64,000 bases of DNA. It comes from Bolinopsis microptera. Taxonomy: Eukaryota; Ctenophora; Tentaculata; Lobata; Bolinopsidae. Below the pieces are notes generated by a model that ran no database searches, was not told where the DNA came from, and worked only from the letters and a program-made list of their open reading frames with translations. Shown here in pieces: positions 8,491 through 42,612 of this stretch; the stretch's first letter is position 1; every line of letters begins with the position of its first letter. The translations under genes and the position numbers were made by a program. The stretch is taken from positions 186,001 to 250,000 of the forward strand of contig NC_087081.1 in NCBI RefSeq assembly GCF_026151205.1, in the 5' to 3' direction.

Positions 8491-11400
8491 ATGTCCTACG
8501 GAAACTACAACACACTGCCACATGAGGAGGACCAGCAAATTCCACCAATGGAACGGAGACAGATCTTAGGAGGAGCTGACCAGTTCCCTCATGAAGTATT
8601 AATGAACTACAACCCTTACTTTACAGAACATGTTTGTTAGCATGTTTGTTAGCATGTTTGTTAGCAATTAGCTATATTAGTTAACATGTTTGTTAGCATG
8701 TTTATAAGCATGTTTGTTAGCATGTTTGTTAACATGTTTGTTAGCATGTTCACTAGCATGTTTGTTAGCATGTTTGTTAGCATGTTTATAAGCATGTTTG
8801 TTAACATGTTTGTTAGCATGTTTGTTAGCATGTTTGTTAGCATGTTTGTTAGCATGTTTGTTAGCACGTTTAATTTATTAGCATGTTTGTTAGCATGTTT
8901 GTTAGCATGTTTGTTAGCATGTTTGTTAGCATGTTTGTTAGCATGTTTGTTAGCATGTTTAATTTGTTAACATGTTTGTTAGCATGTTTGTTAGCATGTT
9001 TGTTAGCATGTTTGTTAGCATGTTTGTTAGCATGTTTGTTAGCATGTTTGTTAACATGTTTGTTAGGGCGTATTTTGATTTAAATCATTTTTTCCATCTC
9101 GAATAATAATAAATTAAGAAAATTGTATAGCTGAAATAATATCTGTCCAAAATGAGAGCGATGTGATTTATCAATAAGTTATAACAGGTGGTGGCAGTAC
9201 CAAGAAGCAGTTGCCAAATGGTGAACCCTGGACCAAACAACCCTTGTTTTGTGGCTGAAAACCCAGTCCGAGACCTGACCCGGTCCCCACTCCGCAAGAA
9301 GCCGCACATACAGAAAGAAGAACACGGAGGACCGCAGGGCTGCTTCATAGGACCAGAGTTCAATTCCGTGTCTTGCAACTTCGAGGAGGAGGAGCAGCCC
9401 TCTGGTAGTTCAAGCGACCAAGGGAGAAGGAACATCACCATGGCTGATCGTAAGGATTATTACTTGATTCTTTGTCTTTCTTTGAAGTTAACGAATGTTA
9501 TATCCAGCAATTTTCGCGATCGGATGTTGGTTTTAAATAGTTTCGATAAAGATTACTGTAAAAGTCGTGCTGAGTTACAATCGAGTTTTGCAATTTGTTA
9601 TTATTAGATACTGTTCAACAAAATCAACATAACCCTGTTATCTATTATATCAACATAACCCTATAACATAACATAACCCTGTTTATGCTATTGGTTGCTT
9701 GACACAAATCTATCATTTCCAATCATGTTCTGATGTTACGCGGAATTTATTCTCCTATATTTTATGATCCATATGTTACAGTTTTGCTGTCCGGTGAGAT
9801 CCCCTTCTCCCCCCTTGAGAGACCGAACACAGAAGCAGCTCGGATATTCTACAACGCTCCTGATACTCCCCCAATTCTCCCAATAGGTAATTAGGTGGTA
9901 ACTAGGTGGTAACTAGGTGGTAACTAGGTGGTAACTAGGTAGTTACTCGGTGGTAACTAGGTGGTAACTAGGTGGTAACTAGGTGGTAACTAGGTGGTAA
10001 CTAGGTGGTAACTAGGTGGTACCTAGGTGGTAACTAGGTAGTAACTAAGCTCGGATATTCTACAACTCCCCCAATTCTCCCAATAGGTTTATTTTTACTA
10101 TATTTCAATCCCATCCCACTTGGATGCATTTTGCACAATAATTAAATTGTAGCTTTTAAACTAATTATTTAACTTGTAATCACAAAATAATTTGTCTAAA
10201 TTTGGGGTCGAAGGTATTTAAGTTTAAGATGTTGAAAAATAAAATATCATGTCGTAGGGTATAAATATGTGGTATTTATTATAATGATATTGAATATCTG
10301 TATTGGGTGACAGTCGCGGACAGCGTTACCTCCTGCACATCAGTGATGGTTTTCTGTAAAGTTATTAACGTTACCGGGCGTAGAAGTATAATTAGCTTTC
10401 AACCTTCAGCTAAATAAGAGCAACCAATAAAAATTTTCGTACGTCATGTTTTATTCTTAGTATTATCTCGAGTTTTTTTCTATTTTAGGGGAGTATGTTA
10501 ATAGTTGCCTTCCAACCTGTAAAGGGCAGGAATGTTTTTATGGGGAAACAATAACTCGATTGCCTGCCACTGCCAGTGCCATATATGCGTCACAAATTTG
10601 TAATTACGACATTTAAGGCATCAGGCATCCGTGCCCATGCATACATTAGGCATACATGGGGTATTTTACAAATCAAAATTTAAGTCGGGCAGGGCAACTC
10701 TGTAAATGTAATAAGTCACATACCGTGAAATTCTAGGAATTATGTATGTGGATTCTATTTCTGGTGGGGAATTGAGGCATTTGAACCAATCAGCTTCCAC
10801 TTGGTATGAGGAACCTATGCGATAACAACCTTTATACCCGAGGGTTTCGGGATCAGAGCTTGTTAATTCACGGTTCGGATCGCATTGATCGCATGGATCG
10901 CATGGCCCAACAAGATGGTAGCCATAACACGGTAACATGGATCACGTGGTGAGTATTCGCAGCCCCTCTCACGTGACGCTATGGCAAGAAATCAAAATGC
11001 CTTCGCCTCATCGTAATCGGAATGTTTGATCTAGTCATGTGACGCGATAACAAGAACAACAAAGTCTTGCAATCGTGTTTTTCACTTGTTCGTTAATAAA
11101 TAGATATTAGATATGTGTCTCTGAAAATTATATTGCTCATATATATTATATTGCGATAGTATAATACTAGTATAATACTATCGCAAATATAATTAGGTAA
11201 TAAATGATATCATTGAGGTTAGTAGCCCAGCCATAATTCATTGCCCGAATGACCGTGCCCCAGGTGGTTTTGCCCGAGATGTGCCCCAGGTGTGCCTGAG
11301 ATGTGCCCCAGGTGTGCCCCAGGTGGTTCTGCCCGAGGTGTGCCCGAGGTGTGCCCGAGATGTGCCCGAGATGTGCCCCGGGTGTCCCCAGGTTCTTTTC

Positions 11401-12285
11401 CCAAGGTTCCCCAATTACCATGCCCGAATTGTGCCCGAGATGTGCCCGAGGTGTGCTTTGTGGTTCTGCCCGAGGTGTGCCCGAGGTGTGCTTTGTGCCC
11501 CAGGTGTGCCCCAGGTGTGCCCCAGGTGTGCCCGAGTTTGTGCCCCAGGTGTGCCCGAGGTGTGCCCCAGATGTGCATCGGCAGATTACCGAGTTACCAC
11601 CAACAAATATAAATACTAATAGCAACACATAACAGATCCGTACACATGGAGCGTAGCAGAGGTGATGCTTTGGCTACGATGGTGCTCCAGGAAGTACGAG
11701 ATACCAAACATAGATCCGCACATGTTTGGGTTCAACGGCAAGGCTATCTGCGTGATGACCAAGGCAATGTTCGAGTACAGAGTGCCGCAGGGGAGAGGGG
11801 CCCTAATCTTATACACGGTAACTAGGTGGTAACTAGGTGGTAACTAGGTGGTAACTAGGTGGTAACTAGGTGGTAACTAGGTGGTAACTATCTGCTTGAT
11901 GACCAAGGCAATGTTCGAGTAGAGTACCGCAGGGAAGAGGGGCCCTAATCTTATACACGGTACCTTGCAATATTAGCTTTAAATATTGATATAAAACCCA
12001 GATATTATAAATCTTAGCGTGTTTAGAATAATGCCACATCAGTGTAATTGTATGGTCATGATTACATTTAAGATCGTATCCACGAATTTACTCTATAAAA
12101 TTTAGATTGAAAATAGTCAGAAGTATTATTGTCATACTAATAGTCATAAGTAATGTTCAATGTTGTCTCAGGAGATAAAGAACAGGAAGAAGCACGCAGC
12201 AGTACAGAAGCAGGCAAACGAGCTCAGGCACCGGAGACGAGAGGAACGACAGAGACATCATGAGGAGCACCAGCCGTCCGGGTAG
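8491..12285 (+). CDS. ETS-type pointed (PNT/SAM) domain protein, five exons, no ETS domain seen
   Basis: Predicted exons are 8491-8631, 9188-9449, 9782-9886, 11636-11817 and 12172-12285. They have matching phases (0,1,1,0), GT-AG borders and sum to 804 nt (267 aa). The start is the first ATG, reading MSYGNYNTLPHEEDQQIPPM; an earlier start in another exon is possible. Residues about 170-240 read DPYTWSVAEVMLWLRWCSRK, then FNGKAICVMTKAMFEYR, then GRGALILY. This matches the PNT domain of ETS factors, closest to ETV6/Yan (W..DDVAQWL.W, MNGKALLLLTKEDFRYR, GDVLYE). PNT domains are helical SAM modules that mediate self-association or partner binding. The upstream part is acidic/Ser-Pro rich. The tail is basic and charged (RKKHAAVQKQANELRHRRRE) and ends at TAG. 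No winged-helix ETS DNA-binding domain follows in the window, so the product may be a PNT-only regulator like Drosophila Mae/Edl, or further exons may exist (a donor-like GG|GTAGTG overlaps the stop). Introns 1, 3 and 4 begin with minisatellites. Confidence 0.75.
8632..9065 (+). repeat. 12-bp minisatellite starting at the exon 1 donor of the PNT gene
   Basis: About 36 units of GTTTGTTAGCAT, with a few variants (GTTTATAAGCAT, GTTCACTAGCAT) and two TTTAATTT breaks. The first unit begins at the predicted donor CAT|GTTTGT of exon 1, so every unit carries the same exon-end trinucleotide and donor dinucleotide. Because 12 is divisible by three it creates long open frames on both strands; these are artefacts of the repeat. 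Confidence 0.9.
9887..10047 (+). repeat. 11-bp donor-derived array in intron 3 of the PNT gene
   Basis: About 14 units of GTAACTAGGTG begin directly at the exon 3 donor (AATAG|GTAATTAGGTG). Each unit contains AG|GT in donor context. The array is bounded on its far side by a second, shortened copy of the exon 3 end. The same unit forms the array at 11818. Confidence 0.9.
10048..10086 (+). repeat. truncated duplicate of the 3' end of PNT-gene exon 3
   Basis: This segment repeats the exon 3 sequence from AGCTCGGATATTCTACAAC to the final CCCAATAG. It lacks ten internal bases (GCTCCTGATA) and is followed by its own donor AATAG|GTTTAT. The ten-base loss would change frame if this copy were spliced in place of the original. 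Confidence 0.85.
10088..11257. other. remainder of PNT-gene intron 4 region up to the GTGCCC array
   Basis: Noncoding. Bases 10646-10745 resemble 15146-15215 (shared words around GCATACATGGGG and CGTGAAATTCT), probably fragments of one dispersed repeat. An open frame on the minus strand at 10666-10938 shows no recognised motif. Confidence 0.4.
11258..11577 (+). repeat. GC-rich 10-12-bp minisatellite, TGCCC(C/G)AGGTG
   Basis: About 27 units alternate between GTGCCCGAG and GTGCCCCAG. This is far more GC-rich than its surroundings and lies about 60 bases upstream of the PNT exon. Open frames on both strands through it are repeat artefacts, including Trp/Gly/His-rich and Cys/Pro-rich ones. Each CCCCAG|GTG word is also splice-junction-like, but no flanking exon was found to seed it. 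Confidence 0.85.
11818..11889 (+). repeat. 11-bp donor-derived array in intron 4 of the PNT gene
   Basis: Six to seven units of GTAACTAGGTG start exactly at the donor of the PNT exon (ACACG|GTAACT). The unit is identical to that of the array at 9887. Confidence 0.9.
11888..11959 (+). repeat. truncated duplicate of the 3' end of the PNT exon
   Basis: It repeats exon positions 11744-11817 with about 90 percent identity and a net loss of two bases, and ends with its own donor ACACG|GTACCT. The two-base loss would shift the PNT reading frame, so this copy is unlikely to be used productively. Confidence 0.9.
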
Positions 12286-12489
12286 TGAGGAGGACATATT
12301 ACGTGACATGAACAGTTCATTCGTTAGTTATGTCGAAAATGAGACACCGTTCTCTCAGAAACAGAACTTCATAAGATTTATATTCAACAGAAAACAACCG
12401 AATATATCCAGATGTAAATCCAAACTCCGAAACCATCTTCAAAATGTTGTTAATTTTTGGTTTGCTTTTCTTCAGTATTCACTATCATC

Positions 12490-12556
12490 AGCGCACCAAA
12501 AGTCAACCTTAGACAGGACCCTATGGGTCCTGTCTAAGGTTGACTTTTGGTGCGCT
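12490..12556. repeat. perfect palindrome, 32-bp arms with a 3-base loop
   Basis: The left arm 12490-12521 and right arm 12525-12556 are exact reverse complements around TAT; the arms begin AGCGCACCAAAAGTCAACCT. A diverged relative of the right arm lies at 14811-14830. A perfect hairpin of this size is either very young or selected; it could be a mini foldback element or a small-RNA precursor. Confidence 0.95.
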
Positions 12557-12559
12557 TTT

Positions 12560-13130
12560 ATGACTATGCTTTTCGATCAACATGAAACGTTCGCGTCAAC
12601 TCATAAAACAAAATCAAGTTTTTGGCTTGGCTTGAACTTGAGGTCCAGTAAAATTTAATTTCCGATCGTTTCCTATACTTAGTGTTATCCCGGCCAAATG
12701 CCCAGGTTAAAAAACATTGCTGATTACGTATTAATACAAAATGAGATGTGAACACATCTTCCAATTGTAAAATGGTGCCCCATTAGTTAAGGTTTTCCTG
12801 GTACAATCATGCTTCATTAAAATTTTCAAAAGTTCATTTTGATGGAATGAAACTCGTTCAAAGAATGGCTATATTTATTATTATTTTTGCTTGCTTAAGA
12901 ATTATGTTAAAATTATGTTATTTTATATTGCTACTGCCATGTACTTTGATGTCTTTTAACAAAACATGTATTCACTTTTATATATATTTCAAATACTTAA
13001 TCGAATCCACTACAGACCAAAACAGACCAACCAGTAACCGGACAGCTGATCAATTATACAGACTGTAAGTATCGTGATTCACTCCCTAGTGATCAGCTAA
13101 CATATCTGCATTGGCTTCATGGCGGGTGGC
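12560..13130. other. no recognised feature
   Basis: AT-rich spacer downstream of the PNT gene. No AATAAA poly(A) signal was noticed close to the stop codon. Confidence 0.35.
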
Positions 13131-13911
13131 GTTATGTTGTTATAAACCCCTCCGGGATAGAATAAGATTCTGATAATCCCGGCTCCCGCTAAATAGATTT
13201 TGATAATCCCGGCTCCCGCTGTTAGTTTTTTCCCGCTGAATGAATAACCCCGGCATAGTTTCTATAATCCCGCCCCGCTAATTTGGCTCAACAAGATTTG
13301 TTTTGTTTTGATATTCCATGAGAATTTCAACCGCGCACTGTCACGTGTTTTGATGACGTGTATCACGTGACTAACTACTACGACGCGCATTGGTAAAAAA
13401 TGTCACGTGACCTATGGCTTAACGTAAGAACTATAAATACACTTGATCTACGTATCGGTCTAATTGCAGGCGCTGGCAAAACTCCAGCACACTGCTTACA
13501 TTACTTAAACTCTTACATTAATTGGACCAGTTCCAGAACTTGTCTCGACGGTTACATTTGATTTTGTCCGGTTAATTTTGTCGTGTTTGATATAAGCCAT
13601 GTATTATAGTCGTCTACTTTGATGAACTTCATGACACGATATCATTATTAGCTCCACCTTTTATCGCTTGCCAGGCTTAACTCGACGCCCCTTATCGATA
13701 TTCATTCAACGTTCTGACTGAGGAATAATGTTTAGATATAACGCCAATTTCAAATGTCATAGTACCTTAGTTGTACTTGTATTACTATTTATTTGGTAGT
13801 CCCCAATTCCATTTCATATTTTCCATACTGATCTCATATAGCTAGAATTAAGAGTAAAATGTCAAATTTGTTGGTCCTAGCACTAACCCGGAGGGGTTTA
13901 TAACACATAAC
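13131..13911. mobile_element. non-autonomous DNA element with about 27-bp inverted ends
   Basis: The left end GTTATGTTGTTATAAACCCC and the right end (13885-13911, reverse complement GTTATGTGTTATAAACCCCT) match except for one inserted base; both continue CTCCGGG inward. The left interior has repeats of AATCCCGGCTCCCGCT. No coding capacity is visible and no target duplication could be fixed, so the superfamily is undetermined. Confidence 0.65.
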
Positions 13912-13929
13912 ACCGGCACGCTTAAGTTA

Positions 13930-14043
13930 TATTAAAATAACCCCTCGTGCTAAAGCACGTCGGGGTTATTTTCATAATAATCCCTCGTGCTTCGCACTCG
14001 AAATTATTATAAATTTTTCCCGCGCGTCGCGGGAAAAATTGAA
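13930..14043. repeat. three consecutive short hairpins
   Basis: AATAACCCCTCGTGC pairs with GCACGTCGGGGTTATT, AATAATCCCTCGTGC with a region ending GAAATTATT, and AATTTTTCCCGCG with CGCGGGAAAAATT. All three sit within 115 bases, just outside the element at 13131-13911, and may be part of a larger related element. Confidence 0.7.
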
Positions 14044-14049
14044 ATATAA

Positions 14050-15635
14050 TCCCTGCGCATGCCGGGGTTATGTGTGTTATGATCTTTTGCAGCAGTAACA
14101 GTTTTAATTCACCCAGCTGTCAGCGTAGCACGGTGAATTCTATAATTTGCTTCTTATTATAAATAAAACTGCTCTAGCAACGATGGCCAGTGGACTATAA
14201 GCAACAGTTGCGCCCCTTTGGATCCAGTTCCTACACATTAACAATCACTAATCCTTGACGTGATTTTAATTCATGTTCTAGATTCTGAAACCGACAGATT
14301 GCGCCCCAGGATCACTTAATATCATCTGACCTTGTTGAGGGATGTGATATCGAGTGCAGATAAGGTGCATACAACCTTCCACTAAGACGCTTGTTATCTG
14401 GCCGCAAAAATTATAAATGTGAGCAGTGAAAGGAAATTATTATTTGTTATCAGCAAGCTCCTGACCGTCACACGTGGTTCCCTCCTCGACACAGACGGAT
14501 TTACTTACACCTTCATTTTGACTGTTTTGAAGAATTCATTGAGTGATACATATGAATGTGGTATTACTATTACAATGTTAGATTTGAGCGTGCTTCCATA
14601 AAAGCTTTTACGCTGGTGTTTGATCAGTTCTCACTCATGAACTAGAACCGTTTCCCCGGCCATCTGTGCCAAAGTGTTCAGCGTCGTACTCGTATAACTT
14701 GTAACTTTATATGTCATATGACTCTAAATCTATATGATTTGAAGCTCGCAAAATACAGGATAGTGACGTAATTACGACGTCACAAAATCTAACATCATGT
14801 AAGGACCTGTCTAGGGTGACTGCAGCTGACAAGTGCCTACTTTTAGACTTTATATGTAGCTTATGCTACTGAAGTTGTCCTTATTAGCATACTACACGTC
14901 ACATTAGCTAGCACCCTATAAAGTGTGTTGCTATAATACCAGTTTCTAAATCAAAATATACTAAACATACTAAACTCCTATTTAAGATATTCCTTATTTT
15001 AGAAAAAAAAAAACGTTTTTGGGGAAGCAATTATAAACAGCTGTCAATCAAATAAAACCCGCGACACACGTCAAAAATCTGTAATTAATATTGAAAGATA
15101 GCAGACGCGACAAGCGTCAGTCATCATGATTACATAAGCATGCGTATGGGGCATTTTTAAATTAAAAATTTAGCGGGGCAACCATATAATGTGTCATCTT
15201 ACGTGAAATTCTGATTAAACTCGCTGGTTGTGAAATTGCACTGCACTGTATACTAAATTTAATCGACTGCATCAAACAAAATAACCAACAAAAGAAAATT
15301 ACAGACCCACAAACCTTTTCTTTCTTTCAAAACCATGTAAAATGTTGTATTTCATTGCTAGTGCTACTCTGCCGTTCCCTGAGAAAACGCATTAAGTCCA
15401 TTTTTTCGAAATTTTGAGATATTGGTACCAGAATTTTCAAGATAAGATTATCTATAACTGCTAATGACAATGCTATGTTATTTGATTTCTTCAAACAAAA
15501 TGTTTTAGAATTTGGTTTCATTTTGTTCTCTAATCTAAGTAATCTTGCTCCTTATACTTGTATACATGTTATAATGTACCGTAAAGTCACTGTATGTATA
15601 ATTTGTGTGTCCGCATACAACTTTAAGTTTAACAG
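14050..15635. other. no gene recognised; two small shared repeats
   Basis: GTCAGCGTAGCACGGT at 14121-14136 recurs at 15868-15883, and 15146-15215 resembles 10646-10745. These are likely fragments of old dispersed repeats. Confidence 0.35.
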
Positions 15636-15754
15636 GTAGCGAAATAAATGAAGGGTTCATACAACTCTATGGCATACGGAGGGCGCGAAATGGAGTCTTC
15701 AGCTTCAAGGCCCAGCCGGGTGGTTTGAATTATTATTTTTATGACGGATATACG
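15636..15754 (+). CDS. candidate isolated exon, function unknown
   Basis: The segment is bounded by AACAG| and ACG|GTTAGT and has one clean frame reading EGFIQLYGIRRARNGVFSFK, then GGLNYYFYDGYT. Its composition is less AT-rich than its surroundings and looks coding. I considered an extension of the PNT gene with a diverged ETS domain, because LYGIRRAR and NYYFYDGY faintly recall parts of that fold, but the order and spacing do not fit. I recognise no family. Confidence 0.25.
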
Positions 15755-16400: not shown

Positions 16401-16402
16401 TG

Positions 16403-18847: not shown

Positions 18848-19800
18848 CTATTTACGCTTACGAAGACTCATTCGTTCAATATGTCTCAAAGTAAATAAAC
18901 TCCTCCATCCTACTCTATCTCTTGCTATGTTCACTAAGTTGGTAAAATCATCTTCATTTTTCAAATTAATTTGTCTCTTAAATAGGTCATTTTTCACAAT
19001 AATATCATAGAAATTAGTCCTGTGTCTACCCACTCGTCCCTTTAGTGTTTGACATCCTAGTGAAGCAAATAACAGAGACTGGTAGGCAGGCGTGTCGTTG
19101 TCACTGCGTAGAACATGACCTAGCATTGTCCACCGTGCCTTTTCCACTCTCTCGGAAAGGGGCCTGGTCTGGGTACGAGCGTAGAGGGCCTTGTTAGATA
19201 TTGAGCTAGGCCAATAGATGTGTAGGATGCGCTTGAGGTGCTTCCTCTGAACAACATCTACAGACTCTAGAACATGCTGAGGTACGGCCCAGCAGCAGCA
19301 GTTGTACAGGAGCACTGATACTACTAGTGAGTCGTAGAGTTTGATCTTTCTCTTCTCAGTTATCTGACTCCTCTCTGATCCCTGGCACCACAGCTTGTCA
19401 AATGACCAGAGGGCGGTGTTAGCTTTATTCATTCTATTAGTAACATCCTGCTCTGATCCAAGCTTAGTACCAAGAAGCGTCTCGTTTCTCACTCCTCTTT
19501 TCCTCTTAGTTCATTATCCCACTCGTCACATGCGCCAACTTCTTCTAAATACACTCTGGTAAACTTTGTCTGGGTTGTCTTTGTGTCGTCTCTGGAGCAT
19601 CCTGCAGCTTCTAGTAGTCTGATTGTTGTACCTCTGCGGATGGTATTGAAGGCAGCTGACATGTCAATACTCACTTTGTTCCATTCAAACTCCTTCTTCA
19701 TTACTACAGATATGAGCATGCTCTGTGCCCAAACTAGGTCGGCACAGCTCCTGCCAGCTTTGTAGGCAGCTTGGAACGGTCCGGTGAAGTTTTTTATTAA
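18848..19800 (-). mobile_element. LINE remnant: reverse transcriptase and C-terminal domain
   Basis: On the minus strand the 5' part reads VSIDMSAAFNTIRRGTTIRL, matching the D.S.AFDTI block of non-LTR reverse transcriptases. A frame break near 19490 separates it from a 214-codon frame. That frame has LYDSLVVSVLLYNCCCWAV, then VVQRKHLKRIL, then RWTMLGHVLRSDND, typical of the region after the RT active site in LINE ORF2 proteins. The FADD/YADD segment, endonuclease and ORF1 are missing. It is a 5'-truncated, inactivated copy. Clade is uncertain. Confidence 0.8.
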
Positions 19801-20051
19801 AGCCTAAACTTAACTTCTACCAATTCAAAATTGTTTACGTCGGTCTCCCCTCCTTGAGCCACTTTTCACATAGCTATTGAATATAAATCACTCTAGCACA
19901 AGCGATTTCAAACCCCCTCCCCTAGGCTGGATTAGGTTATTATATGTGAACTGTGCTCTAGTGCATGACTGACTTTACATAATGCAGAGCATGCAAAGTT
20001 TTGATGTTTCATAAACTTATGAATAAAGTTTTAAAATCGTGACATAAAAAG

Positions 20052-20644: not shown

Positions 20645-20664
20645 CTGCAGTTATCATTATTCAA

Positions 20665-27170: not shown

Positions 27171-27508
27171 CCTAAGTCTAACACATATTTGGATATTTGC
27201 CAGGTTTTAGCTCGATTATCAAACTCAGGATACCAACATTGAACATATGGTCATTAGTCTAACAACCTCTGTTTTCTATTCTACTGACGGGTCCCCTATT
27301 ATATATTCATGTAAAGAATGGTCTTTAAACGCCACTAGTGAATGAGTCGGCTGCATACAGACTAGGAACCGACCGGAAATCCGGCTGAATCCGGTTCCGG
27401 CCGGATATCCGGCTTCAAAATCCGGTTCCGGCTCCGGCTCCGGCTGGAAAAAAATTTGCCGGATTTTTGCCGGATTTCAATTTTTTTTACCAACAAAAAA
27501 TCAAAAAA

Positions 27509-28810
27509 ATATTTTCGGCTAATAATGAACAAGGTAGCCTGAATCGTGGAAAAAAGTGGTTTTCAGAAAAACTTTTAAAAATTTTTGACTTAGAAGTTTT
27601 TCGGTCCGAGTCGTTCTCGAGACGTACCTCCTGTATCGAGAGCTCCGATCCCGCTTCCGAGCTCGTGTTGCAAAGGGGAGGCCTGCCTTCCGAGATCGCA
27701 TTACCGGGGGAAACCTTGAGTCCAGAATTGTGTATCGAGAGGTAGGTGGGGACTTCGAAAAACCGAAAAAATATTTTCGGCTAATAATGAACAGGGTAGC
27801 CTGAATCGTGGAAAAAAGTGGTTTTCAGAAAAACTTTAAAAAAATTTTGACTTAGAAGTTTTTCGGTCCGAGTCGTTCTCGAGATGTACCTCTTGTATCG
27901 AGAGCTCCTGCTTCCGAGCTCGTGTTGCAAAGGGGAGGCCTGCCTTCCAAGATCACATTACCGGGGGAAACCTCGAGTCCAGAATTGTGTATCGAGGGGT
28001 AGGTGGGGACTTCGAAAAACCGAAAAAATATTTTCGGCTAATAATGAACAGGGTAGCCTGAATCGTGGAAAAAAGTGGTTTTCAGAAAAAATTCGAAAAA
28101 TTTTAACTTAGAAGTTTTCGGTCCGAGTCGTTCTCGAGACGTACCTCCTGTATCGAGAGCTCCCGCTTCCGAGCTCGTGTTGCAAAGGGGAGGCCTGCCT
28201 TCCAAGATCACATTACCGGGGGAAACCTCGAGTCCAGAATTGTGTATCGAGGGGTAGGTGGGGACTTCGAAAAACCGAAAAAATATTTTCGGCTAATAAT
28301 GAACAGGGTAGCCTGAATCGTGGAAAAAAGTGGTTTTCAGAAAAAATTCGAAAAATTTTAACTTAGAAGTTTTCGGTCCGAGTCGTTCTCGAGACATACC
28401 TCCTGTATCGAGAGCTCCCGCTTCCGAGCTCGTGTTGCAAAGGGGAGGCCTGCCTTTCGAGATCACATTACCAGGGGAAACCTCGAGTCCATAATTGTGT
28501 ATCGAGAGGTAGGTGGGGACTTCGAAAAACCGAAAAAATATTTTCGGCTAATAATGAACAGGGTAGCCTGAATCGTGGAAAAAAGTGGTTTTCAGAAAAA
28601 CTTCGAAAAATTTTAACTTAGAAGTTTTCGGTCCGAGTCGTTCTCGAGACGTACCTCCTGTATCGAGAGCTCCCGCTTCCGAGCTCGTGTTGCAAAGGGG
28701 AGGCCTGCCTTCCGAGATCGCATTACCGGGAGAAACCTTGAGTCCAGAATACAGAATAGTGTATCGAGGGGTAGGTACGTGCGGACTTAGAAAAAACCGG
28801 AAAATATTTT
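27509..28810. repeat. five tandem copies of a 255-262-bp unit
   Basis: Units begin ATATTTTCGGCTAATAATGA at 27509, 27771, 28028, 28283 and 28538. Copies differ mainly by small indels, and the inner three are nearly identical. Each unit contains GTCCGAGTCGTTCTCGAGAC and the GC-rich GCTCGTGTTGCAAAGGGGAG. Open frames on both strands repeat from unit to unit with indel-driven breaks, so I do not call a protein. Confidence 0.95.
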
Positions 28811-29888: not shown

Positions 29889-29889
29889 C

Positions 29890-30950: not shown

Positions 30951-30958
30951 CCACGAGA

Positions 30959-31075: not shown

Positions 31076-31079
31076 ACAT

Positions 31080-32350: not shown

Positions 32351-35300
32351 TTACGTACCAGAGAGGGTAGCGAAGTGGTCGGGAATGTTGCTCTGCTGAA
32401 GGAGAGGAGTGGAGTGGAGTCCGGAGGTGGAGTGAAGGGCTTGTGGCATCAGCTCGAGACCTGGCATCTGATAGTTCTGCGGCATCATCATCTGAAGGAC
32501 AGCGTGTTATTTTAATTAATAATATCCCATTGTCTTTAACAAATCTTCAATTGAAGAACAATATTATAGCCGGAACCAAAATGCCGAAAAAGGCCGATTT
32601 TAAGTAGGCCTAGGCCGGCCCCCCCCTCCCCCCCCCCCCCCCCCCCCCCCTAGGCCATCACCTGCTGGAAGGGTGTGTTTTGCTGGAGGAGCTGGAATGC
32701 GAGTAACTGTTCCTGGTTTGTCATGTGCCCTGTGATAATTAGCCAATTAACCAATTGAATAGTTATATAATTTATTAATAGATTGAAAGAGAGGAATCTA
32801 ATTATCACTATTCACAAGATCAGAATTTAAAATGACCTCCGCATCTTTGCAAACCTTGCAAACCTTGCAAGCCTTGCAAACCTTGTAACCCTTGCAAACC
32901 TTGCAAACCTTGTAACCTTGCAAACCTTGTAAACCTTGTAAACCTTGTAAACCTTGCAAACCTTGTGTAGTAATGCTACATTACTACTAACCTTGCAAAC
33001 CTTGTGATATGAAGGGGCCTGGCTGGCTGCTCCCAAAATTGCTAGACAAAGTATTCTGATTGAAGTTGGGGGTTGACAAGGACGCTGAAATGTAGTCAGT
33101 CAGTGCTGAAATATAGTCGGTTGAGTTGACTTTCTGCTGATCAATAAGCATGAAATTCCACAGCTCAAATGACCATATCAATTGCTTTTGATTATTATAT
33201 CAATAGTCAAAAATTAAAAGTAAAAGAGAAAGGAAATGGGCATGATAATAGAAAGTTGAAGTAAAACTAACCGAGAGAGTGAAAGTAAAAGCAGAGAGTG
33301 AAAGTGAAACTAACCGAGAGAGTTATAGTTGGAAGAGACAGGAGTTTGAGATCTAGTCTGGAACTGTAAGTTAGCCATGTTCATGGGTAGGGGTCTGTGT
33401 TGCTGTTGGCCCGTGTTGCCTGCACTGTAACGTGCATTACCCGTGTTTGTTAAGTACCTATCATGGAGCGTCCGTGAGATTTAAATTTAAATTTACAACT
33501 GTAACATAAGTTTTGAAATATGATGAAGAGTGCTTAACAACGACATGATAAGAACACATTACTAATTTCTAACTAAAGTATACTATAAATAGTTCTACTA
33601 GTTGAGCTCACCCAGGATGGGACGTAGTAAGGTGGTGGGATCCGAACATAGTGTGGTCGTTTATCTTACTCATTGGGATTATTCCCGGTCTACTGTTGTT
33701 ATCTTTGTCGTTCATACCTGGGAATATTAATTAGAACACCTGGTGTGCACATAGTATTGAGTATTGAATATGATATTTAGCGAATACGGTAAGTAAAAGT
33801 GAAATTAAACTCACAGGAAAAGCGAAAGATTACTCACAGGAAAAGCGAAAGTGAAAGATTACTCACAGGAAAAGCGAAAGTGAAAGTGATTACTCACGTG
33901 GCATGTACATGTGACTGAAAGTGTCTTGAGTAGCCATTATTTGAGGAGGAGGAGGCGGCTGTATCTGCTCCTTTACGTAGTGCATGTTTTGTATCGGGTG
34001 CACTATTTGCTGCGGATTACAAGAAATATTACCTCGAATATATTAATACCTCACACTTTATCATTATGTAAAAATAATGTAATGAAAGGAATTTAATTTT
34101 ACAAATATGCAGGAATTTGTCCCTAAACTCTACTTACCCTTAATTTCTCACGTCTTCCTTATCTACCGTTACATTCGCACATGACAAATCAAACATCTCC
34201 TCTTATTTCCTCACCTAAGGGTTTCTTACCTCCTCCTTAGCCTATTATATCTAACGCAAACCTTATAAGTACATACTACATACCCACGATAAACTGAGCA
34301 CTTAACCAAACTACGATTATAACAATACAGTATAATGAACTAGTTATATACCTATAGTTGTATACAGTATAATGAATAGGAGAGGTACACCGTGTATTTG
34401 TTTGTATAATGAACTATATATTTAATAATTTCACAAACCTCAGGTTTACTCTGAATAGGATGAACTATTTGCTCAGGTTTATCGTCCTTAACGTCTTTGT
34501 TCTCAGCCGGTGCCACTTTTTCCTGTTCCTCTACTGGATGCTTCTTGTACGGTGCTCTGTTTACCTTTCTCATTATCTCTGCTTGGTCTGGCTCTTTCAA
34601 CCTGAAAGTGGAATATTAAAGGAATCGTGGCTGTAGTTCTTATCGCACGTGGACGGATCTATACTTCGTTTTTACTGTGATAAGTAGTAATTAGTGCTGA
34701 TTAATTACCTTATCAGAACTTATGTTTACTACGACCAACCTGATATTGTCAACACTTTTAGCAAGGTGGTCGATATTATCGTCTCTTTTTCCGTTAAACA
34801 TGTCCGGTTGTTTGTACTCGTTCCTCCGCATCGGATACCTGAGCATCACCATAGTCACACTACTAGTTACCATAGTTACACTACATGTAACACCACGTGA
34901 TAAATCACGTGTCACAATCCTTTTTAAGAATCTTGTAACAATGAAACCTATTCTATTGTAAAGCTATCGTTGCGTGTATAACAGCCGTGGTGTGGTGTAA
35001 AGGGTTATGATTTGATTACTTCAAGGGGCAGTTATCACGCAATTAGTGTAAACTAAAGATTGCAGCACCAGGAGTATAAACTGTAAGTGTAGTGGTGTAG
35101 TGTGTGTAGTGTACACTGACCTAGGTGCCTGTTGAATAAAACCAGGAGGTAAGTGTCTAGCTATATAGTGTGATTACTGACCTAGGTGGCTGCTGAATAA
35201 AACCAGGAGGTAAGTGTCTAGCTATATAGTGTGATTACTGACCTAGGTGGCTGCTGAATAAAACCAGGAGGTAAGTGTCTAGCTATATAGTGTGATTACT

Positions 35301-38300
35301 GACCTAGGTGGCTGCTGAATAAACCCAGGAGGTAAGTGTCTAGCTATATAGTGTGATTACTGACCTAGGTGGCTGCTGAATAAAACCAGGAGGTAAGTGT
35401 CTAGCTATATAGTGTGATTACTGACCTAGGTGGCTGCTGAATAAAACCAGGAGGTAAGTGTCTAGCTATATAGTGTGATTACTGACCTAGGTGGCTGCTG
35501 AATAAAACCAGGAGGTAAGTGTCTAGCTATATAGTGTGATTACTGACCTAGGTGGCTGCTGAATAAAACCAGGAGGTAAGTGTCTAGCTATATAGTGTGA
35601 TTACTGACCTAGGTGGCTGCTGAATAAAACCAGGAGGTAAGTGTCTAGCTATATAGTGTGATTACTGACCTAGGTGGCTGCTGAATAAAACCAGGAGGTA
35701 AGTGTCTAGCTATATAGTGTGATTACTGACCTAGGTGCCTGCTGAATAAAACCAGGAGGTAAGTGTCTAGCTATATAGTGTGATTACTGACCTAGGTGGC
35801 TGCTGAATAAAACCAGGAGGTAAGTGTCTAGCTATATAGTGTGATTACTGACCTAGGTGGCTGCTGAATAAAACCAGGAGGTAAGTGTCTAGCTATATAG
35901 TGTGATTACTGACCTAGGTGGCTGCTGAATAAAACCAGGAGGTAAGTGTCTAGCTCCAGGGTGAAGCTGGTAGGAGGGCCTGAATCCCAGCCCAGGAAGT
36001 GAAACTCCTCCTTCAGCCCGCAGGATACCCGGTTTATTGTTCATCTCGCGGGAAGTTTTGTAAGAAGACATTATCGCTTCAGCTATTGTTCGATTCTGCT
36101 CAACATAACTGGGTAATTAATAATTACTAATTATTCAGTTACATAATTATGGGGATTAAATCAACTCGTCTTCAGCCAGAGTGACGCCCCTTCATAACGT
36201 TAATGGAGAAACATTGTAATTGATTTAACGAGAGAATTTGAAAGATTAATCATATCGTATGTTAATGTTCTTGTATAAATTATGACACACACGCCTTCCA
36301 GTTTCCATTACGTCATACCACGCCTCTCACGTGACATTGGGGGGGGGGGGGGTGTCACGTGACATTGGGGGGGGGGGGGGGGGGGGGGGGGGTGTCACGT
36401 GACATCTTCCTCTTACCGTATTTCAGAGAAGAGGCCCTCATCCTCGTGAGGAAGAGTAAAGTTCTTCTTCATCTCGTCTACAGCAGGCAGGGGAATGTGT
36501 TTGGGAGATACTTGTTCACGTTCCTTACACCTGTGATGTACGTGGTCAGGACAAAATGATGTGCTGACAAATTGAGGATGGATGTAAATACAGGGTGTTT
36601 CAAGACTCGTGTCCAAATTTGAAATTATAATTTTTCTGTTATGAAGGAGCAAATTAAATAATAGTTAATAGTTAATAGTACTATGTTTACAGTATGTACT
36701 GAAGGGGTATCCTAGGAAGTTTCTTGAACTTTTAACAGGTACCCCTCCTCATTTTACCCTCAATTAAGTTTCCTATCATTCGGCTGAATCGACCGAGGAG
36801 ATCGCATAGATCCAATGTATCCTTAGCTACTCCCTAGACTAGGACGTGACACTGGGATTCGAACCCTGAACCTTCTGCGCAGAAGGCGGATGCTCTAACC
36901 ACTAGGCCACCTAGTACATTAGATGAAATCGGTTATATGGGAAAGCTTGTTAGGTCTTAAATTTTAGTTATTTCTTGCAAAATTGTGTCAAAACCCATTT
37001 TTTCATTATTTTGCAATCTTTTGAAATTTTTCGAAGAAAATGTCAAAATTTGCCCTATCAAACGTGAAGAGAGTAGACATCGTCAAGCTTCTCTGTGTCA
37101 ACGGAAGCAGTTGGACGGCTGCTAGGAGTGCACTTTCGAAGAAATACGGAAAATCAGGAAAATTCATGTAGTGGCTGCTAAAATCAGCCCATTCTACACA
37201 GTCTAATTTATGTAACATATTCATTATTCACACCTCTTAATAAGCTCGGTATCCGTAACTACGAGAACAGCAGCAATGGCCTTGTAGTTCTCGAATATTC
37301 TCAACTTCTGCCGGCGTGGAGCTGCATAGACGTTTGTCTGGTCGACAATGTAGTTGCGGGATTTGGTGCCAGCTAGTTTCAGCTGCTCTGTTGCAATGTC
37401 TGAGCACAACTTCACTACTCGGTTCCACCTGGAAAAGGGTTAAAAGGGAGATTAGAATGTGAAATATAACGTGGTATTTGTGCAGCGAAATATTGAACTT
37501 GAAAGTGTAGTGCTCAGTTAGAACATTTATTTGCCAAGGGACCCAATACTTACTTGAGTTTGTATCTTTTAACAGCGGCGTTCCTCAGGTGCCCCATGAT
37601 CATATCCTGTCCCAAAAGATAATATCTCTTCTCTGGTTTCTCGCTCATCTGCTTCAGAGCATAAGTTGTTTTACCAGCACCGGGCAATCCTATCATCATT
37701 ATCAGTTCTAAGTCCTGTACATAGATTTGTCAGAAATCTCGTCTTTGGTACGACCAGATAAAATAAAAAACGTTGAAAATACCTTGAATCTGTTTCTTAT
37801 TAAGATAACACAACTCATTACGCAGGAAATAACAAACCGTTGGTTTGTTAGGAGGTCTAAGGGTAGCCACCAAGTTGTTAGGGTGGGTGTGAGAGATGAA
37901 GATGAACCCGTGGGGTGGTTTAAAAGCAGGGGGCTTCTGTCCAAAATTAACAAACACCTGAAAATGCTAGATTAGGATAAGGCCACTGGCTGTTGTGGTC
38001 AACAGAGAATTGAGAAACTGACAAGATACGTATCTTAAATGGTCTAAAGCCGAGAGTACCCTCTTACCTCGGTGTTTTTAACACATATGTGAGGCAGAAA
38101 GGGGCTTTCTTTGGCTCGCTTATCCAACTTGAATGCAGTCCCTGGGTGTTAATTATACATGAAAAGAAGAGAAAATGAATAATATTGAAGATGAGGGGAA
38201 GGTAAATTGTATTGAAAACATCAGAGCTAAAAGAAATCTAATCTACAGACCTAGGAACTCGTCATTTTTCTGGAAAGAAACAAGCCCACAATCAAGATCA

Positions 38301-41300
38301 AGATAACACGTGATGACGTCGTGTAAATGTAACCGTCCTCCGTAAACGTCAAACCTGAAATAAATTTACTTTGAAACTGCTAATGGATGTTTTGTTGATC
38401 AGGAAAAGCTGGTCGAACCGCATGAGATAATTTATACATATTCAAGTTCGAGCGAATATTATAAAATGCATAAAGACTGCCAGCTCAAGCATCAGATAAT
38501 GTTAAAAATGGATTGATGACGGTTGGCAGGTAGAAGACTGGTTTTTTTAAATATCGACAGAACAAGTTTATCCAAAAAAGTGACTTAAAATACTTACTTT
38601 CCATCAAGACTCTTAAAACCAGCTCCATCGTAGCCATAAGAGTTAACATCTTCTCCCAGCAATAAGTTGGTTTGATCGTGTGACCACCCAACTCTTATGT
38701 TACAATCTGCTTTCACGTCACATCCTTCTAAATACTCGTTCAACTGAGGACATGAGTACATCAAAATAGGTCTCAGCTGTGATTAAAACTTAAGGGGGGG
38801 GGTTCAGCCTGAAATTTTTGTGAAACTTAATTCTGACATAGCCAGTTAACCAACAAACTAGGACCCGTAACCAAACTTTTGAAGGGGACCCGGACCCCAA
38901 CCGCCTACCGATGCCCGTATTTGACCCCACTTTGGCCGAGCTAGTCCAAATCACCTTAACATGTCCAAAACCCAGATTTTAGGGTTTTTACGTGTAGCTA
39001 AAAAACCCTAAAACCATATGCCCATATTTTGGTATACGCACCAAATTTGATAGATTTTGGCCCATAAATTGGTCAAATATCAATATTTTTGAATGAAACC
39101 AACATTACATGAAAGGTAACCCTAAACTATACATTCTCTGAGATATATAGCTTAATATTTATAGAAATGTGGACATTTTACAAAGGTCCTGAGACAATTT
39201 CAAACCCATTCTGAAAAATGAAAAAGCCTTAGGCTTTTTGATGAGGTCAATCGCGAACTGAGATATGGGCAGTTTTCTTCATTTTAAATGGTCTTTTGGC
39301 GTTAATTTCCACATTTCTATGAAAATTAAGCTATATATAATCAAGAGGCTTGCATATGAATATATTGACATGGGTGCAGAGTTGAGCCTGTACGGAACCT
39401 AGAAGTTTCAGTTCCTTGTTTAACTTGCCGTACAGCAAGGACATTCACTACTTTAGCCCGGCGAGGCACATAGCTCACTCCACAACTCCGTGTCAAATGT
39501 TTCATATATACTAGCCAAGAACAGAGAATGTATAGTTGAGTCATTTTTTGTCCAATCTAAATGAAAATTCATATACGAGTTCAGGGGATATACTAGTTCA
39601 GGGGACCACTAGCTACACGTAAAAATCCTAAATCTGGGTTTTGGGCATGTTAAGGTGATTTGGCCTAGCTCGGCCAAAGGGGGCCAAATATGGTCGCGGC
39701 TGCACCGCGGGCACCGGAAGGCGGTTGGAGTCCGGGACCCCTCAAAAGCTTGGTTACGGGTCCTGGTTTGTTGGTCAACTGCTATGTCAGAATCAAGTTT
39801 CACAACAATTTCAGGCTGGAACCCCCCCACCCCCCTAAATCAGCTAATTAACTCCAAAAAATTGAAATTTTGCAGAGATTTTAATGCCCAATGTAACCAA
39901 AGGATGAGTCTGGTGTTTTACAATTTAGTAAAACTGTGCTTTTAATATAAGCGACTGTAATTCACTTAATATGCAACGGATCTTCGTAATCGATTCAACT
40001 TCATTTGAGCTTATTACTGAAATATCAAATTTTTTATTTGATAGGCAACAACTTACAACAATGATTAGTAGAACATTTAACTGCAAATTTCGTTGAAAAT
40101 TCGTCGAAAGCGACGGTAATTAACGCGCACGAAATTGTGTGCTTCCACATTGCGAGGGAAATTAATTTTCGACGGTTAAAATGTCACTGCGCGTTACATT
40201 ACACATTTTCTGTAGACCTTCATTTCTATATCCCATCGAGTGGGCCAACGCAGAATGTACTATAATCGATTCACGGGACTGGCGACTTGGTGACTGAAGC
40301 TGATTTATTGCAATTACGATTACCCTAGATGCAAGTAAGCACTATGATGTGATTTAAGATAGTGAATTAGGCAGGTGCAGACTACGGATTAGCTGCAACA
40401 ATGGGACAGACTAGGTGGAAATTGTGTCGGGATTGCAGTTGCTACATTGATAACCCTTACTGGCCACTCCGGTTTGTATTGTCACAATACTTGGGTCTGT
40501 GTGGCTTCTGTTGTTATTTAATCTCAACAAAGTGGCGCTGTAATTATCCTCAAACACGCTAGAGTCATATAATGGGGTACAAGCTTTTAGAGGCTAGCTT
40601 TAAATGTTAACTAGTTCTACTGTATTGGCGTGAATTATCCCGATCAAACTTGTTTGAACTTATCTAAAGTTTAATATTCATGATCAATGGAACTGGAGAT
40701 TTAAAACTTGGTAGTAACCCTGCAAAGTGGTCGGGAGTAAACTGTTGCTTGTATGTGTTAATACTTCCTTTTTATTCTTAAATTGATAAATTCAAACCGT
40801 TAGCACGTAGTTGTTGACAATGTTGAGTTAAACAAGTATATGTCAATACTACAGTTATGGACTGTAATATAATATGCAATATATGACACGAGTTGCAGTG
40901 AAATTGGTATTGGAAGAACCGTGACCGGTGACTCTATGATGAGATCGACACCTCTTTCACTAGCTTACTAGGGTCGTCCCATTCTTTCATTCGATATGCT
41001 ATAATAATAATACCTCATTTAATCTTTTGCCAATATGAGCGCAATATAAATACTCTCCTTCATTTCAGTTCATCTCATTGGATAATATTAGACGTTTTCT
41101 TAATCTCGTTTGAATATTGAATATTTCAATGGTATGTTCGCCTATCTGAGTAGCAGTAATACTTAACTGTTCATGTTTTCCGTAGGCAAGTGTGTGTCTC
41201 AAAAAGGCATTAAAATTTAATTAGACAGTAAACGAAATTTAATTGTCTGTTGAAATTTCAAGTGAATATCGTGTTACATGAACATGCTTGTTAAGATTGA

Positions 41301-42405
41301 AAATACACACGTTCTAGCCAGCTGCTTTGTTGACCCCTTTTCATTTGTCTTAATTCTTAAATTTCTATTTTGATGAAATTCCATTCAACTTTTTAGAATA
41401 GAAATGTGGCTTTGAGTATCTGGTCCCTTAACGATTAAACAGTGCAATAAATATTTGAAGGTGCGGAATGTAAGAAATATGCTATCAGATATTTAAGCCC
41501 AAGTTTAATTCTCTAAGCCCTTCAGAAGCTGAGATACAAATTTGCCACTTATTATGAAGTATGGGTGTGGTCCCACAGGGTTGGGACTAGCGACACAACA
41601 TGCGCACTTAAGTAAATTGAGTAACCTATTTAACCCGATTCAGTAGCAAAAAACTCTATTCACTGAAGTGCACACTCAATACCTCCCCGCTACTAGAAAC
41701 TTTGATGTTTATCAACCTTAAACCTGTTTGTCGGCCTGTATTACAGTATTATTCTCACAGTTAATGTTTAATGTAACAATCGTATTGAAAAATGGCATAC
41801 CTAATATATCAACGTAATATTCTATTGTTATCATATAGTTTACACGTCCACAGTATATATTTTTATATCTATAAATATTTATAAATGGTAGATTTATTTA
41901 GTAATTAACCTGATTTCAGCTGAGTAGATTTTAATTCTACTCAAAATGTTTACCTTATAATGATTGATGACGTGCACCTCGAAGAAGACCTTGCCGCGCA
42001 GGACACCATGCGTGGAGCGTACACCTGCCCACATGTACTGCCAGCCATTGTGCGATAATGAGTGACCTGAGGTGCAAAATAATCTCTTTTTAGTCTCTTT
42101 TAATAATCTCTAATAATGTTAAAATAAGAATATGAACCATTAGAATCTTTTCATAGAGATGATACAGAGCTACGCAATCTTTTAGCACCTGTCTAAACCG
42201 GTTATTTAGCAAAATATAATAATCAAAATAAAAGTTTTAAACTAAATGGGTAAAGGCAAAATGATAGGAGAATATCTAAATTAATCATTGTCTTAATTAT
42301 TTTACAATTAATTATCTGATAGATTACTCACCGGCTAACCCATCAGCTCTTATGTTGAAGTTTAAATCAGCATTGTTATCGTCTAACAGCACGGGGTTCA
42401 TCCTA
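32351..42405 (-). CDS. HNRNPU-like: HNRNPU-like protein (SPRY plus P-loop kinase-like domain), 18 exons
   Basis: Exons, in transcript order: 42401-42332, 42066-41954, 38743-38598, 38354-38251, 38141-38068, 37957-37783, 37707-37554, 37428-37234, 36530-36417, 36108-35914, 34838-34740, 34601-34439, 34009-33898, 33717-33612, 33457-33315, 33084-33001, 32729-32662, 32491-32351. All borders are GT-AG, phases agree, and the total is 2256 nt (751 aa). Residues about 5-200 form a SPRY domain ([40 protein letters not shown]). Residues 230-345 are the P-loop domain with Walker A GLPGAGKT (234-241), YIVDQTNV (305-312) and MKKNFTLP. The tail is rich in Gln, Met, Pro and Asn. Family members bind RNA and chromatin in the nucleus. 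The N-terminal SAP domain and the RGG tail of vertebrate HNRNPU were not found. The 5' end is uncertain: an acceptor (TTTCTGTTTAG) precedes the first ATG with no coding exon visible upstream. The last exon could instead splice at G|GTACGT, just before the stop. Confidence 0.88.
32613..32650. repeat. C/G homopolymer just inside intron 17
   Basis: C8, T, then 23 C on the plus strand, that is a G tract on the transcribed minus strand starting 12 bases after the exon 17 donor CAG|GTGATG. A G run so close to a 5' splice site could act as an intronic splicing enhancer or form a G-quadruplex. Confidence 0.9.
32846..33005 (-). repeat. 9-bp array derived from the exon 16 donor
   Basis: On the minus strand about 16 units of CAAGGTTTG follow exon 16. 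The exon itself ends CACAAG|GTTTGCAAG|GTTAGT, so the unit is the splice junction. Two donors nine bases apart are in frame with each other and differ by three codons. Confidence 0.85.
33083..33126 (-). repeat. 21-bp duplication of the exon 16 acceptor
   Basis: On the minus strand GACTATATTTCAG and GACTACATTTCAG lie 21 bases apart, giving two acceptors (exon start 33105 or 33084) in the same frame. Use of the distal one adds ALTDYIS. Confidence 0.8.
33268..33322 (-). repeat. 43-bp duplication of the exon 15 donor
   Basis: CTCTCTCG|GTTAGTTT occurs at the real donor and again 43 bases into the intron, separated by CACTTTCACTCTCTGC-like sequence. Confidence 0.8.
33811..33900 (-). repeat. 23-30-bp repeats of the exon 13 donor region
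   Basis: The donor context GTGAGTAATC recurs as CTGTGAGTAATC at two further places and as CTGTGAGTTTAA at a third. Each is preceded by CTTTCGCTTTTC on the minus strand. Confidence 0.8.
34839..34890 (-). repeat. 20-bp duplication just upstream of the exon 11 acceptor
   Basis: GTAGTGTAACTATGGTAACT is followed directly by the related AGTAGTGTGACTATGGTGAT and then GCTCAG|. The branch-point and polypyrimidine region has thus been doubled. Confidence 0.7.
35097..35958 (-). repeat. 61-bp array, 14 copies, of the exon 10 end and donor
   Basis: On the minus strand each unit contains the exon 10 end (CACTTACCTCCTGGTTTTAT ... CCACCTAG), the donor GTCAGT and 15 intron bases. The first unit is the true end of exon 10 ([15 protein letters not shown]); the following 13 are in the intron. 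Sixty-one is not a multiple of three, so each unit shifts frame, and a TAG appears if the first donor is skipped. Units are nearly identical. The other strand carries AGGAGGTAAGTG, itself a strong donor consensus. Confidence 0.95.
36334..36400. repeat. GTCACGTGACATT-G(n) units beside the exon 9 donor
   Basis: Three copies of the palindrome TCACGTGA-CAT alternate with runs of 14 G (36339-36352) and 26 G (36367-36392). The last copy lies 8 bases into the intron from donor ACG|GTAAGA on the minus strand. Confidence 0.85.
36591..37200 (+). mobile_element. mariner-like element fragment, N-terminal part, in intron 8
   Basis: It starts with CAGGGTGTTTCAAGACTCGT next to a TA. From 37039 it encodes [20 protein letters not shown] followed by [18 protein letters not shown]. 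This matches the first helix-turn-helix of mariner transposases (VFIVK.Y...GSSWTA..RAFRKKYG). The rest of the transposase is missing. It lies antisense to the HNRNPU-like gene between exons 9 and 8 and is interrupted by a tRNA-like SINE piece. The terminus is shared with the relic ending at 2919. Confidence 0.8.
36710..36917 (-). mobile_element. tRNA-derived SINE (or tRNA pseudogene) inside the mariner fragment
   Basis: On the minus strand TGGCCTAGTGGTTAGAGC is a good polymerase III A box, and GGTTCGAATCCCA, about 35 bases on, is a good B box. An anticodon-arm-like stem CCTTC/GAAGG sits between. The acceptor stem does not pair and the T stem has a mismatch, so it is not a working tRNA. About 130 bases of non-tRNA body follow, as in SINEs. 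Its outer boundary and target duplication were not defined. Confidence 0.6.
38789..39838. mobile_element. foldback element with about 220-bp inverted arms in intron 2
   Basis: The left arm (38789-39005) and right arm (39610-39838) are inverted copies, seen as GTTCAGCCTGAAATTTTTGT versus its counterpart ending AATTTCAGGCTGGAAC, and ACATGTCCAAAACCCAGATT versus AATCTGGGTTTTGGGCATGT. Inner pairs also match (ATACATTCTCTGA with AGAGAATGTAT, and TATAGAAATGTGGA with TCCACATTTCTAT), so almost the whole element can fold. About 175 bases near 39345-39520 appear to be an insertion into the right half. No coding capacity; superfamily unknown. Confidence 0.85.
39850..41950. other. remainder of HNRNPU-like intron 2
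   Basis: AT-rich intron with no exon, repeat or RNA that I can support. Confidence 0.4.
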
Positions 42406-42612
42406 CTAAACAGAAAATATTATAAAGGAGTTAATCTTTAGGGTGCAGAGAGGATTCATCCTACTTAACAGAAAATATTATAAAGGAGTTAACTTCAGGG
42501 TTCAAATAGGGTTCAACCTACTAAACAGAAAATATTATAAAGGAGTTAACTTCAGGGTTCAGAGAGAATTCATCCTACTAAACAGAAAATATTATAAAGG
42601 AGTTAACTTCAG
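42397..42612 (-). repeat. 57-58-bp array, 4 copies, across the first-exon acceptor
   Basis: Copies start at 42397, 42455, 42512 and 42569. On the minus strand each contains TATAATATTTTCTGTTTAG, the polypyrimidine tract and acceptor of the first recognised exon, plus the first exon bases AGGATGAA or a variant. The three upstream copies are decoy acceptors. Confidence 0.9.

Follow-up and report, generated by a model that had tools for sequence, protein, structure and literature searches.

Can the DNA around a splice site become the unit of a minisatellite, and why would it do so repeatedly within one small region? The question is raised by a 64,000-nucleotide window from the ctenophore Bolinopsis microptera (contig NC_087081.1 of assembly GCF_026151205.1, positions 186,001 to 250,000 of the forward strand; coordinates below are those of the window), in which two unrelated genes, one encoding a PNT domain and one resembling HNRNPU, carry tandem arrays that begin at or across exon-intron borders. 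An initial annotation placed such arrays at roughly ten junctions. Repeats are indeed present at most of these, with the exon 9 donor and the exon 11 acceptor of the HNRNPU-like gene falling away. We lean, by a little, toward an explanation in which local tandem duplications spanning a junction expanded into minisatellites toward the intron and, being almost silent, were retained.

The answer depends on where the exons end. Gene models were rebuilt for both genes, with domains assigned by profile search and borders by phase and frame (Table 1). Profile matches identify SPRY (2.4e-15) and AAA_33 (3.6e-22) domains in the HNRNPU-like protein, whose SPRY part finds its best solved-structure match in DDX1; HNRNPU is presumably the family that combines SPRY with this kinase-like domain. 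The PNT gene matches SAM_PNT (1.2e-14), and the PDB neighbours of its domain are ETV6, ETV7 and pokkuri, with multi-copy ETV6 constructs as the top scores. For each exon, all GTs in the phase of the model before the next stop were ranked by their pairing with U1. Given these phases, the strongest GT is the assigned donor in 16 of 17 HNRNPU-like exons, and the borders are therefore independent of the repeats; the donor of exon 15 ranks second to a GT that would remove 126 bases. The PNT exon 2 donor ranks first, while those of exons 3 and 4 come second, each to a GT whose use would cost coding sequence (93 and 156 bases, respectively). At PNT exon 1 the assigned donor, CAT/GTTTGT (a slash marks the exon-intron border), is weak at -0.9 kcal/mol, given that three quarters of 760 sampled GTs lie at or below -1.3, and an alternative in-phase donor at 8596, GAA/GTATTA, is better (-3.7 kcal/mol). 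This junction is doubtful, and the array reported for PNT intron 1, which does touch the assigned donor, is anchored only as securely as that donor.

Table 1. Genes, exons and repeats in the window (TRF, Tandem Repeats Finder).
Feature	Position	Strand	Basis or remark
PNT gene, 5 exons	8491 to TAG just after 12281	+	Gene model, phases consistent
12-bp minisatellite CATGTTTGTTAG, 36 copies, touching the assigned, doubtful exon 1 donor	8629..9066	+	TRF score 625
PNT exon 3, 105 bp, ends ..CCCAATAG	9782..9886	+	Gene model
11-bp minisatellite GGTAACTAGGT, 14.7 copies, begins with the exon 3 donor G/GT	9886..10047	+	TRF score 282
Intron 3: second copy of exon 3 tail plus GT, 11-bp deletion	10048..10088	+	First copy 9837-9888
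PNT exon 4, PNT/SAM domain, ends ..TATACACG	11636..11817	+	Gene model, SAM_PNT, PDB matches
11-bp minisatellite GGTAACTAGGT, 6.7 copies, begins with the exon 4 donor	11817..11890	+	TRF score 148, 100%
Intron 4: second copy of exon 4 tail plus GT, frameshifted	11890..11961	+	First copy 11746-11819
HNRNPU-like gene, 18 exons, 761 aa	32351..42405	-	Joined exons give one open frame; intron phases all consistent
57-bp array, 3.8 copies, at the acceptor that immediately precedes the start codon	42397..42612	-	TRF score 367
HNRNPU-like exon 10	35914..36108	-	Gene model; sole other in-phase GT far weaker
61-bp minisatellite, 13.8 copies, spanning the exon 10 donor	35115..35955	-	TRF score 1654, 99% matches
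33-bp coding tandem duplication, exon 12 end and exon 13 start, split by intron 12	exon 12, 34439..34601; exon 13, 34009-33898	-	
About 29-bp array at the exon 13 donor; units open with GTGAGT and lead into a pyrimidine tract	33795..33897	-	TRF
Exon 15 donor array, period 43, CTCTCTCG/GTTAGT two times	33259..33323	-	TRF
21-bp two-copy repeat, two in-phase TTTCAG acceptors for exon 16	33077..33118	-	13/21 bases alike
9-bp array (AAGGTTTGC), 13.3 copies, 3' of the exon 16 donor	32847..32965	-	TRF

The HNRNPU-like gene holds the clearest array, that of exon 10, whose unit is made of 42 bp of exon tail and 19 intron bases GTCAGTAATCACACTATAT. Every such unit contains an acceptor-like TTTTATTCAG in addition to the donor. 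The arrays annotated at the donors of exons 13 and 15 were recovered as well, as was the one at the exon 1 acceptor, a site 4 nt before the ATG. In the latter, the units hold TTTCTGTTTAG/TAGGATGAA or a variant of it, the AG and the ATG region having been duplicated together. The arrays at the exon 1 acceptor and at the exon 15 donor each reach 9 bases into the exon. At exon 16 the initial annotation is borne out in part. Matching units are present at the exon end, but they are followed by a 27-nt gap with a hairpin before the 9-bp array itself begins, and the two acceptor copies do lie 21 nt apart, with 13 of 21 bases alike. The hairpin between the donor and the 9-bp array is a perfect one of 21 nt (GTAGTAATG and CATTACTAC) at 32967-32987.

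Two further candidates were rejected as anchored arrays. On the exon 9 side the TRF array ends 37 nt from the donor, with its G-run about 25 nt away, and its unit is without any splice site; at the exon 11 acceptor there are two copies with 15 of 21 bases alike and the AG outside the unit, which makes this case weak at best. The statement that each unit repeats the splice site itself is supported at six junctions and fails for the units near exons 9 and 11. Separately, a minisatellite at 5777-5846 shares 32 bp at 94% with 34848-34879, just upstream of the exon 11 acceptor.

The PNT gene adds a feature of a different kind. The arrays at the exon 3 and exon 4 donors, both present as annotated, have their unit in common and are 100% identical over 60 bp; perfect whole units make up 11 of 14 in the exon 3 array and 6 of 6 in the exon 4 array. 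Each array is followed by the tail of its own exon once again and then by GT. Between the exon 3 tail copies there are 41 aligned bases with 0 substitutions and 11 gap bases, and between the exon 4 tail copies 72 aligned bases with 3 substitutions and a 2-bp deletion. Because the 11-bp and 2-bp deletions break the frame, the second copies look dead and intronic. In our reading of the alignment, three joins out of four have 3-4 bases in common with the array (GGT, GGTA, CTA). Judged from this footprint, the two arrays look like the outcome of break repair with a copied insert rather than of slippage alone. Most simply, break repair would have duplicated the exon tail in tandem and brought in the array as a copy from the other PNT intron. 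The direction of copying is ambiguous, with the exon 4 units being purer and the exon 4 flanking copy more diverged. The shared unit and its repair-like footprint contradict the view that all arrays are separate events. Another period-11 array (TGCCCGAGGTG) is located off-junction in PNT intron 3, at 11255-11576, 60 nt from exon 4.

A mobile introner or satellite was also considered. The 11-bp unit occurs at two sites within the window; 33 bases of its array had no match in viral contigs, nor had 30 bases taken from the 61-bp unit in prokaryote genome contigs. Mobile elements are recognized by a short exact target-site duplication. None is seen at the PNT arrays, where the flanking copies (52 and 74 bp for the first copy) are unequal and inexact.

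How unusual is it for arrays to lie on junctions? With a TRF score of at least 50, a period above 1 and calls merged, there are 12 arrays inside the two genes, seven of which touch a junction: the donors of PNT exons 1, 3 and 4 and of HNRNPU-like exons 10, 13 and 15, and the HNRNPU-like exon 1 acceptor. The other five, at 10877, 11255 (60 nt away), 32847 (27 nt), 36327 (37 nt) and 39571, do not. Stricter cut-offs change little (7/11 touching at score 60, 6/9 at score 80). All P values that follow are nominal, as the stretch was picked by a reader who had already seen the pattern. If arrays are placed at random with up to 10 exon bases tolerated, 0.50 touching arrays are expected (P=1.2e-7); with up to 45, a limit chosen from the observed maximum of 42, the expectation is 1.75 (P=5e-4). 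Null models in which one unit is duplicated as a seed and grows in place give 0.79 or 1.08 (P=2e-7 and 6.5e-6). When arrays may fall anywhere, exons included, 4.16 are expected and P rises to 0.06. We give more weight to the exon-sparing nulls, since arrays that overwrite exons would be lost. If PNT exon 1, being doubtful, is scored as not touching (6/12), the P values are 0.0039 (45-base), 1.2e-4 (seed) and 0.18 (anywhere); if PNT exons 3 and 4 are in addition counted once (5/11), they are 0.015, 0.0013 and 0.36.

A junction-wise test gave no excess. A local copy, defined as at least 22 of 31 bases alike, occurs at 7 of 43 junctions, a number reached in 218 of 399 rotations. The corresponding rates elsewhere are 21% of 3165 deep-intron, 3.8% of 730 exon and 6.6% of 15984 outside positions. 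This design is weak because an anchored array also fills the interior of its own intron, which serves as the control. Whether junction arrays are more frequent than chance would allow turns on the choice of null.

The explanation that we favour slightly would work as follows. Duplication of an exon tail together with the whole 5' splice site would keep a working donor beside the exon; the spliceosome would take this exon-proximal donor, and the remaining copies would leave with the intron. In the PNT gene, the array would have been copied between donors during break repair while 52 or 74 bp of exon tail were duplicated, which would amount to tandem duplication with a templated insert. An in-frame stop lies 3-23 nt past the exon-proximal donor of PNT exons 3 and 4 and of HNRNPU-like exons 10, 13, 15 and 16, and the full-length protein therefore needs the first donor copy. 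With the further copies lost in the intron, duplications of donors would be silent. Duplication of an acceptor is expected to be less so, with the upstream AG being offered first, and would be tolerated solely where the mRNA can carry an extra copy without much damage, either before the start codon or as 21 nt in frame. The sole touching acceptor array does precede the ATG, and the two acceptor copies of exon 16, being 21 nt apart, leave the frame intact. Among the touching arrays, six are at donors and one is at an acceptor (one-sided binomial 0.055; 5 vs 1 and 0.099 without PNT exon 1). The donor bias and the placement of the acceptors fit a selection filter that acts on splicing.

Several points weigh against this explanation. 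Patterns that fit a filter do not prove it, nor do they alone yield 7 of 12 touching arrays: the filter by itself predicts about 1.8, so either a bias at birth or luck is needed as well. The sequence itself shows the borders, what the units contain, the unit common to two PNT donors and the frameshifted tail copies, whereas the choice of the exon-proximal donor, an origin in break repair and a selective filter are inferred. The pure PNT exon 4 array stands beside its more diverged flanking copy, which makes the order of events ambiguous. Finally, an apparent excess of arrays at the donors of the C-terminal part was rejected, as it depends on how near misses are counted and is not robust. It amounts to 4/8 vs 0/9 (P=0.029) with exon 16 counted and exon 9 not, 3/8 vs 0/9 (0.082) for touching arrays only, and 4/8 vs 1/9 (0.13) with both near misses counted.

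The foremost alternative is a mutational hotspot. If splice-site DNA were such a site in this genome, recurrent breaks or template switching at donors would seed the duplications. The excess over the exon-sparing nulls suggests such a hotspot, as the initial annotation had proposed, and so does the occurrence of one array at two PNT donors, with exon-tail duplications and short common bases at the joins. But the junction-wise test is negative, two genes only are involved, and the neighbouring POLE3-like and REXO4-like stretch has no array scoring at least 50, though it also has few junctions. We regard a hotspot as possible, if unlikely. Slightly less likely again is chance, in which a repeat-rich genome, short introns and selection against exonic repeats combine with a reader's choice of a rich stretch. 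The arrays-anywhere null, the junction-wise rotations and the modest significance of the strictest count on the 45-base null all leave room for it. It does poorly against the exon-sparing nulls, and would have to account for the splice site inside the units at six junctions and for the exon-tail copies at two donors.

Might the arrays instead have a function, with spare donors boosting U1 recruitment or regulating splicing? Donors with arrays do pair more weakly with U1 on average (-6.0 vs -7.6 kcal/mol, 7 vs 14 donors), and the acceptor-like motif accompanying each donor of the exon 10 array could be read in the same way. The difference is not significant (P=0.20), however, and the seven include, as their weakest member, the donor of PNT exon 1, itself in doubt. 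We consider a function for the arrays very improbable.

The other proposal of the initial annotation, that introns were gained repeatedly as AGGT-containing exon DNA was duplicated in tandem (the Rogers/Hellsten model), is a shade less probable still. Under the Rogers model, the surroundings of the donor and the acceptor of a newly gained intron are expected to be copies of one another. The two regions were scored for 21 introns against cross-pairs, and none of the seven with an array at or next to the donor (PNT 1, 3, 4; HNRNPU-like 10, 13, 15, 16) stands out, with 12-91% of cross-pairs scoring as high. Moreover, the PNT exon-tail copies sit in the middle of their introns. For the introns that bear arrays, an origin by gain is not supported. 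The one intron that hints at a duplication footprint is HNRNPU-like intron 12, which is without an array. It splits a coding duplication whose copies are identical at 26 of 33 positions, sitting 9 bp into copy 2 while copy 1 is unsplit, and its donor/acceptor score is reached by 0.7% of cross-pairs, with about 0.15 such introns expected among the 21. Evidence for a further copy at the intron start is weak, its score being reached by 13 and 35 of 1000 shuffles, and the last bases of the intron match the exon 12 end no better than shuffles do (423 and 398 of 1000). Intron 12 may be regarded as a candidate young intron. HNRNPU-like intron 6, for which 1% of cross-pairs score as high, was discarded as duplication-born; its score is an artefact of comparing windows that share 15 bases, the intron being 75 nt long. 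Least likely of all is an assembly that joined two haplotypes end to end. The divergence of a few percent between the exon 4 tail copies would suit haplotypes, but the frameshifting deletions in both second copies would be unlikely in working exon alleles and the arrays themselves would be left unexplained.

Repeats at splice junctions have been described before. The human CBS gene has a 31-bp variable number tandem repeat, c.1444_1467+7, that crosses an exon end in 16-21 copies (PMC2630376). The 61-bp units of HNRNPU-like exon 10 likewise run from the end of an exon into the first bases of the intron, and units across an exon-intron border are found here at the exon 1 acceptor and the exon 15 donor as well. 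The CBS repeat concerns one junction and has known copy-number variation, whereas more junctions in two genes are involved here, in one sequence. A second CBS variant, c.844_845ins68, duplicates 68 bp of intron and exon and is bypassed by splicing (PMC2630376). In this variant too an intron/exon junction is duplicated in tandem and the duplication is removed by splicing, but there are two copies and no internal minisatellite. In human genes within segmental duplications, internal tandem repeats with a mean unit of 30 bp include some at exon-intron boundaries, as here (PMC2812944). Those repeats alter introns between paralogues with transcript support, while the present arrays are known from one sequence alone.

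Border-crossing duplications have also been tied to new introns. In a potato RNA-dependent RNA polymerase gene, an intron originated when a stretch crossing an intron-exon border was duplicated; a 24-bp case in fission yeast and one in ATP2A1 are cited alongside it (PMC4974935). The duplications are of a similar kind, but the array-bearing introns described here show no evident new intron. Direct repeats near splice sites have been claimed for 213 introns (PMC11782384). As for the source of the duplications, small tandem duplications can result from the repair of DNA breaks (PMC8355091, PMC5730883). These are local as well, to which the PNT cases add an inserted array common to two sites. Among the open-licence papers listed by the literature searches, none reports several repeats on the splice junctions of one invertebrate gene, which is no proof of absence. 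Relatives of the HNRNPU-like protein were found neither for an 81-aa stretch in viral contigs nor for a 118-aa stretch in genome contigs.

Other features of the window can be listed briefly. The HNRNPU-like gene is the last of three genes arranged head to tail on the minus strand (45381-32351), after one with an RNase_T domain and one with a CBFD_NFYB_HMF domain, which we take from these domains to be REXO4-like and POLE3-like. In each of the three an AG is found 2-6 nt before the ATG, and it is possible that the run is a polycistron resolved by spliced-leader trans-splicing. Intron 8 of the HNRNPU-like gene contains a tRNA-like match at 36852-36909 (minus strand), which scores 29.8 in Rfam against a threshold of 29 bits and is not called by ARAGORN; it is perhaps a short interspersed element. 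About 200 bp downstream of the PNT gene stop lies a perfect palindrome (12491-12555), whose two arms of 31 bp flank a 3-bp centre. A 255-bp tandem repeat occupies 27496-28750 (4.9 copies at 95%). A DDE_Tnp_4 transposase fragment and two reverse-transcriptase fragments below the Pfam cut-off are located at 851-1255, 19489-19803 and 51950-52387.

On present evidence, the arrays are a cluster of a known kind, the unusual parts being the clustering and the array common to two donors. A bolder reading, which we think improbable but worth stating, is that 5' splice-site DNA is a recurrent target of break repair in this lineage, with donor arrays copied from intron to intron and splice sites spreading as minisatellites. 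Were this true, introns would gain stacks of spare donors and recursive AG/GT sites. Should the excess at junctions hold genome-wide, either splicing shelters mutations that would otherwise be purged or donors are hotspots of repair. The genome would then offer a ready-made experiment on splice-site choice, with 14 successive copies of one donor available to the spliceosome, and on duplicated splice sites as a source of intron change.

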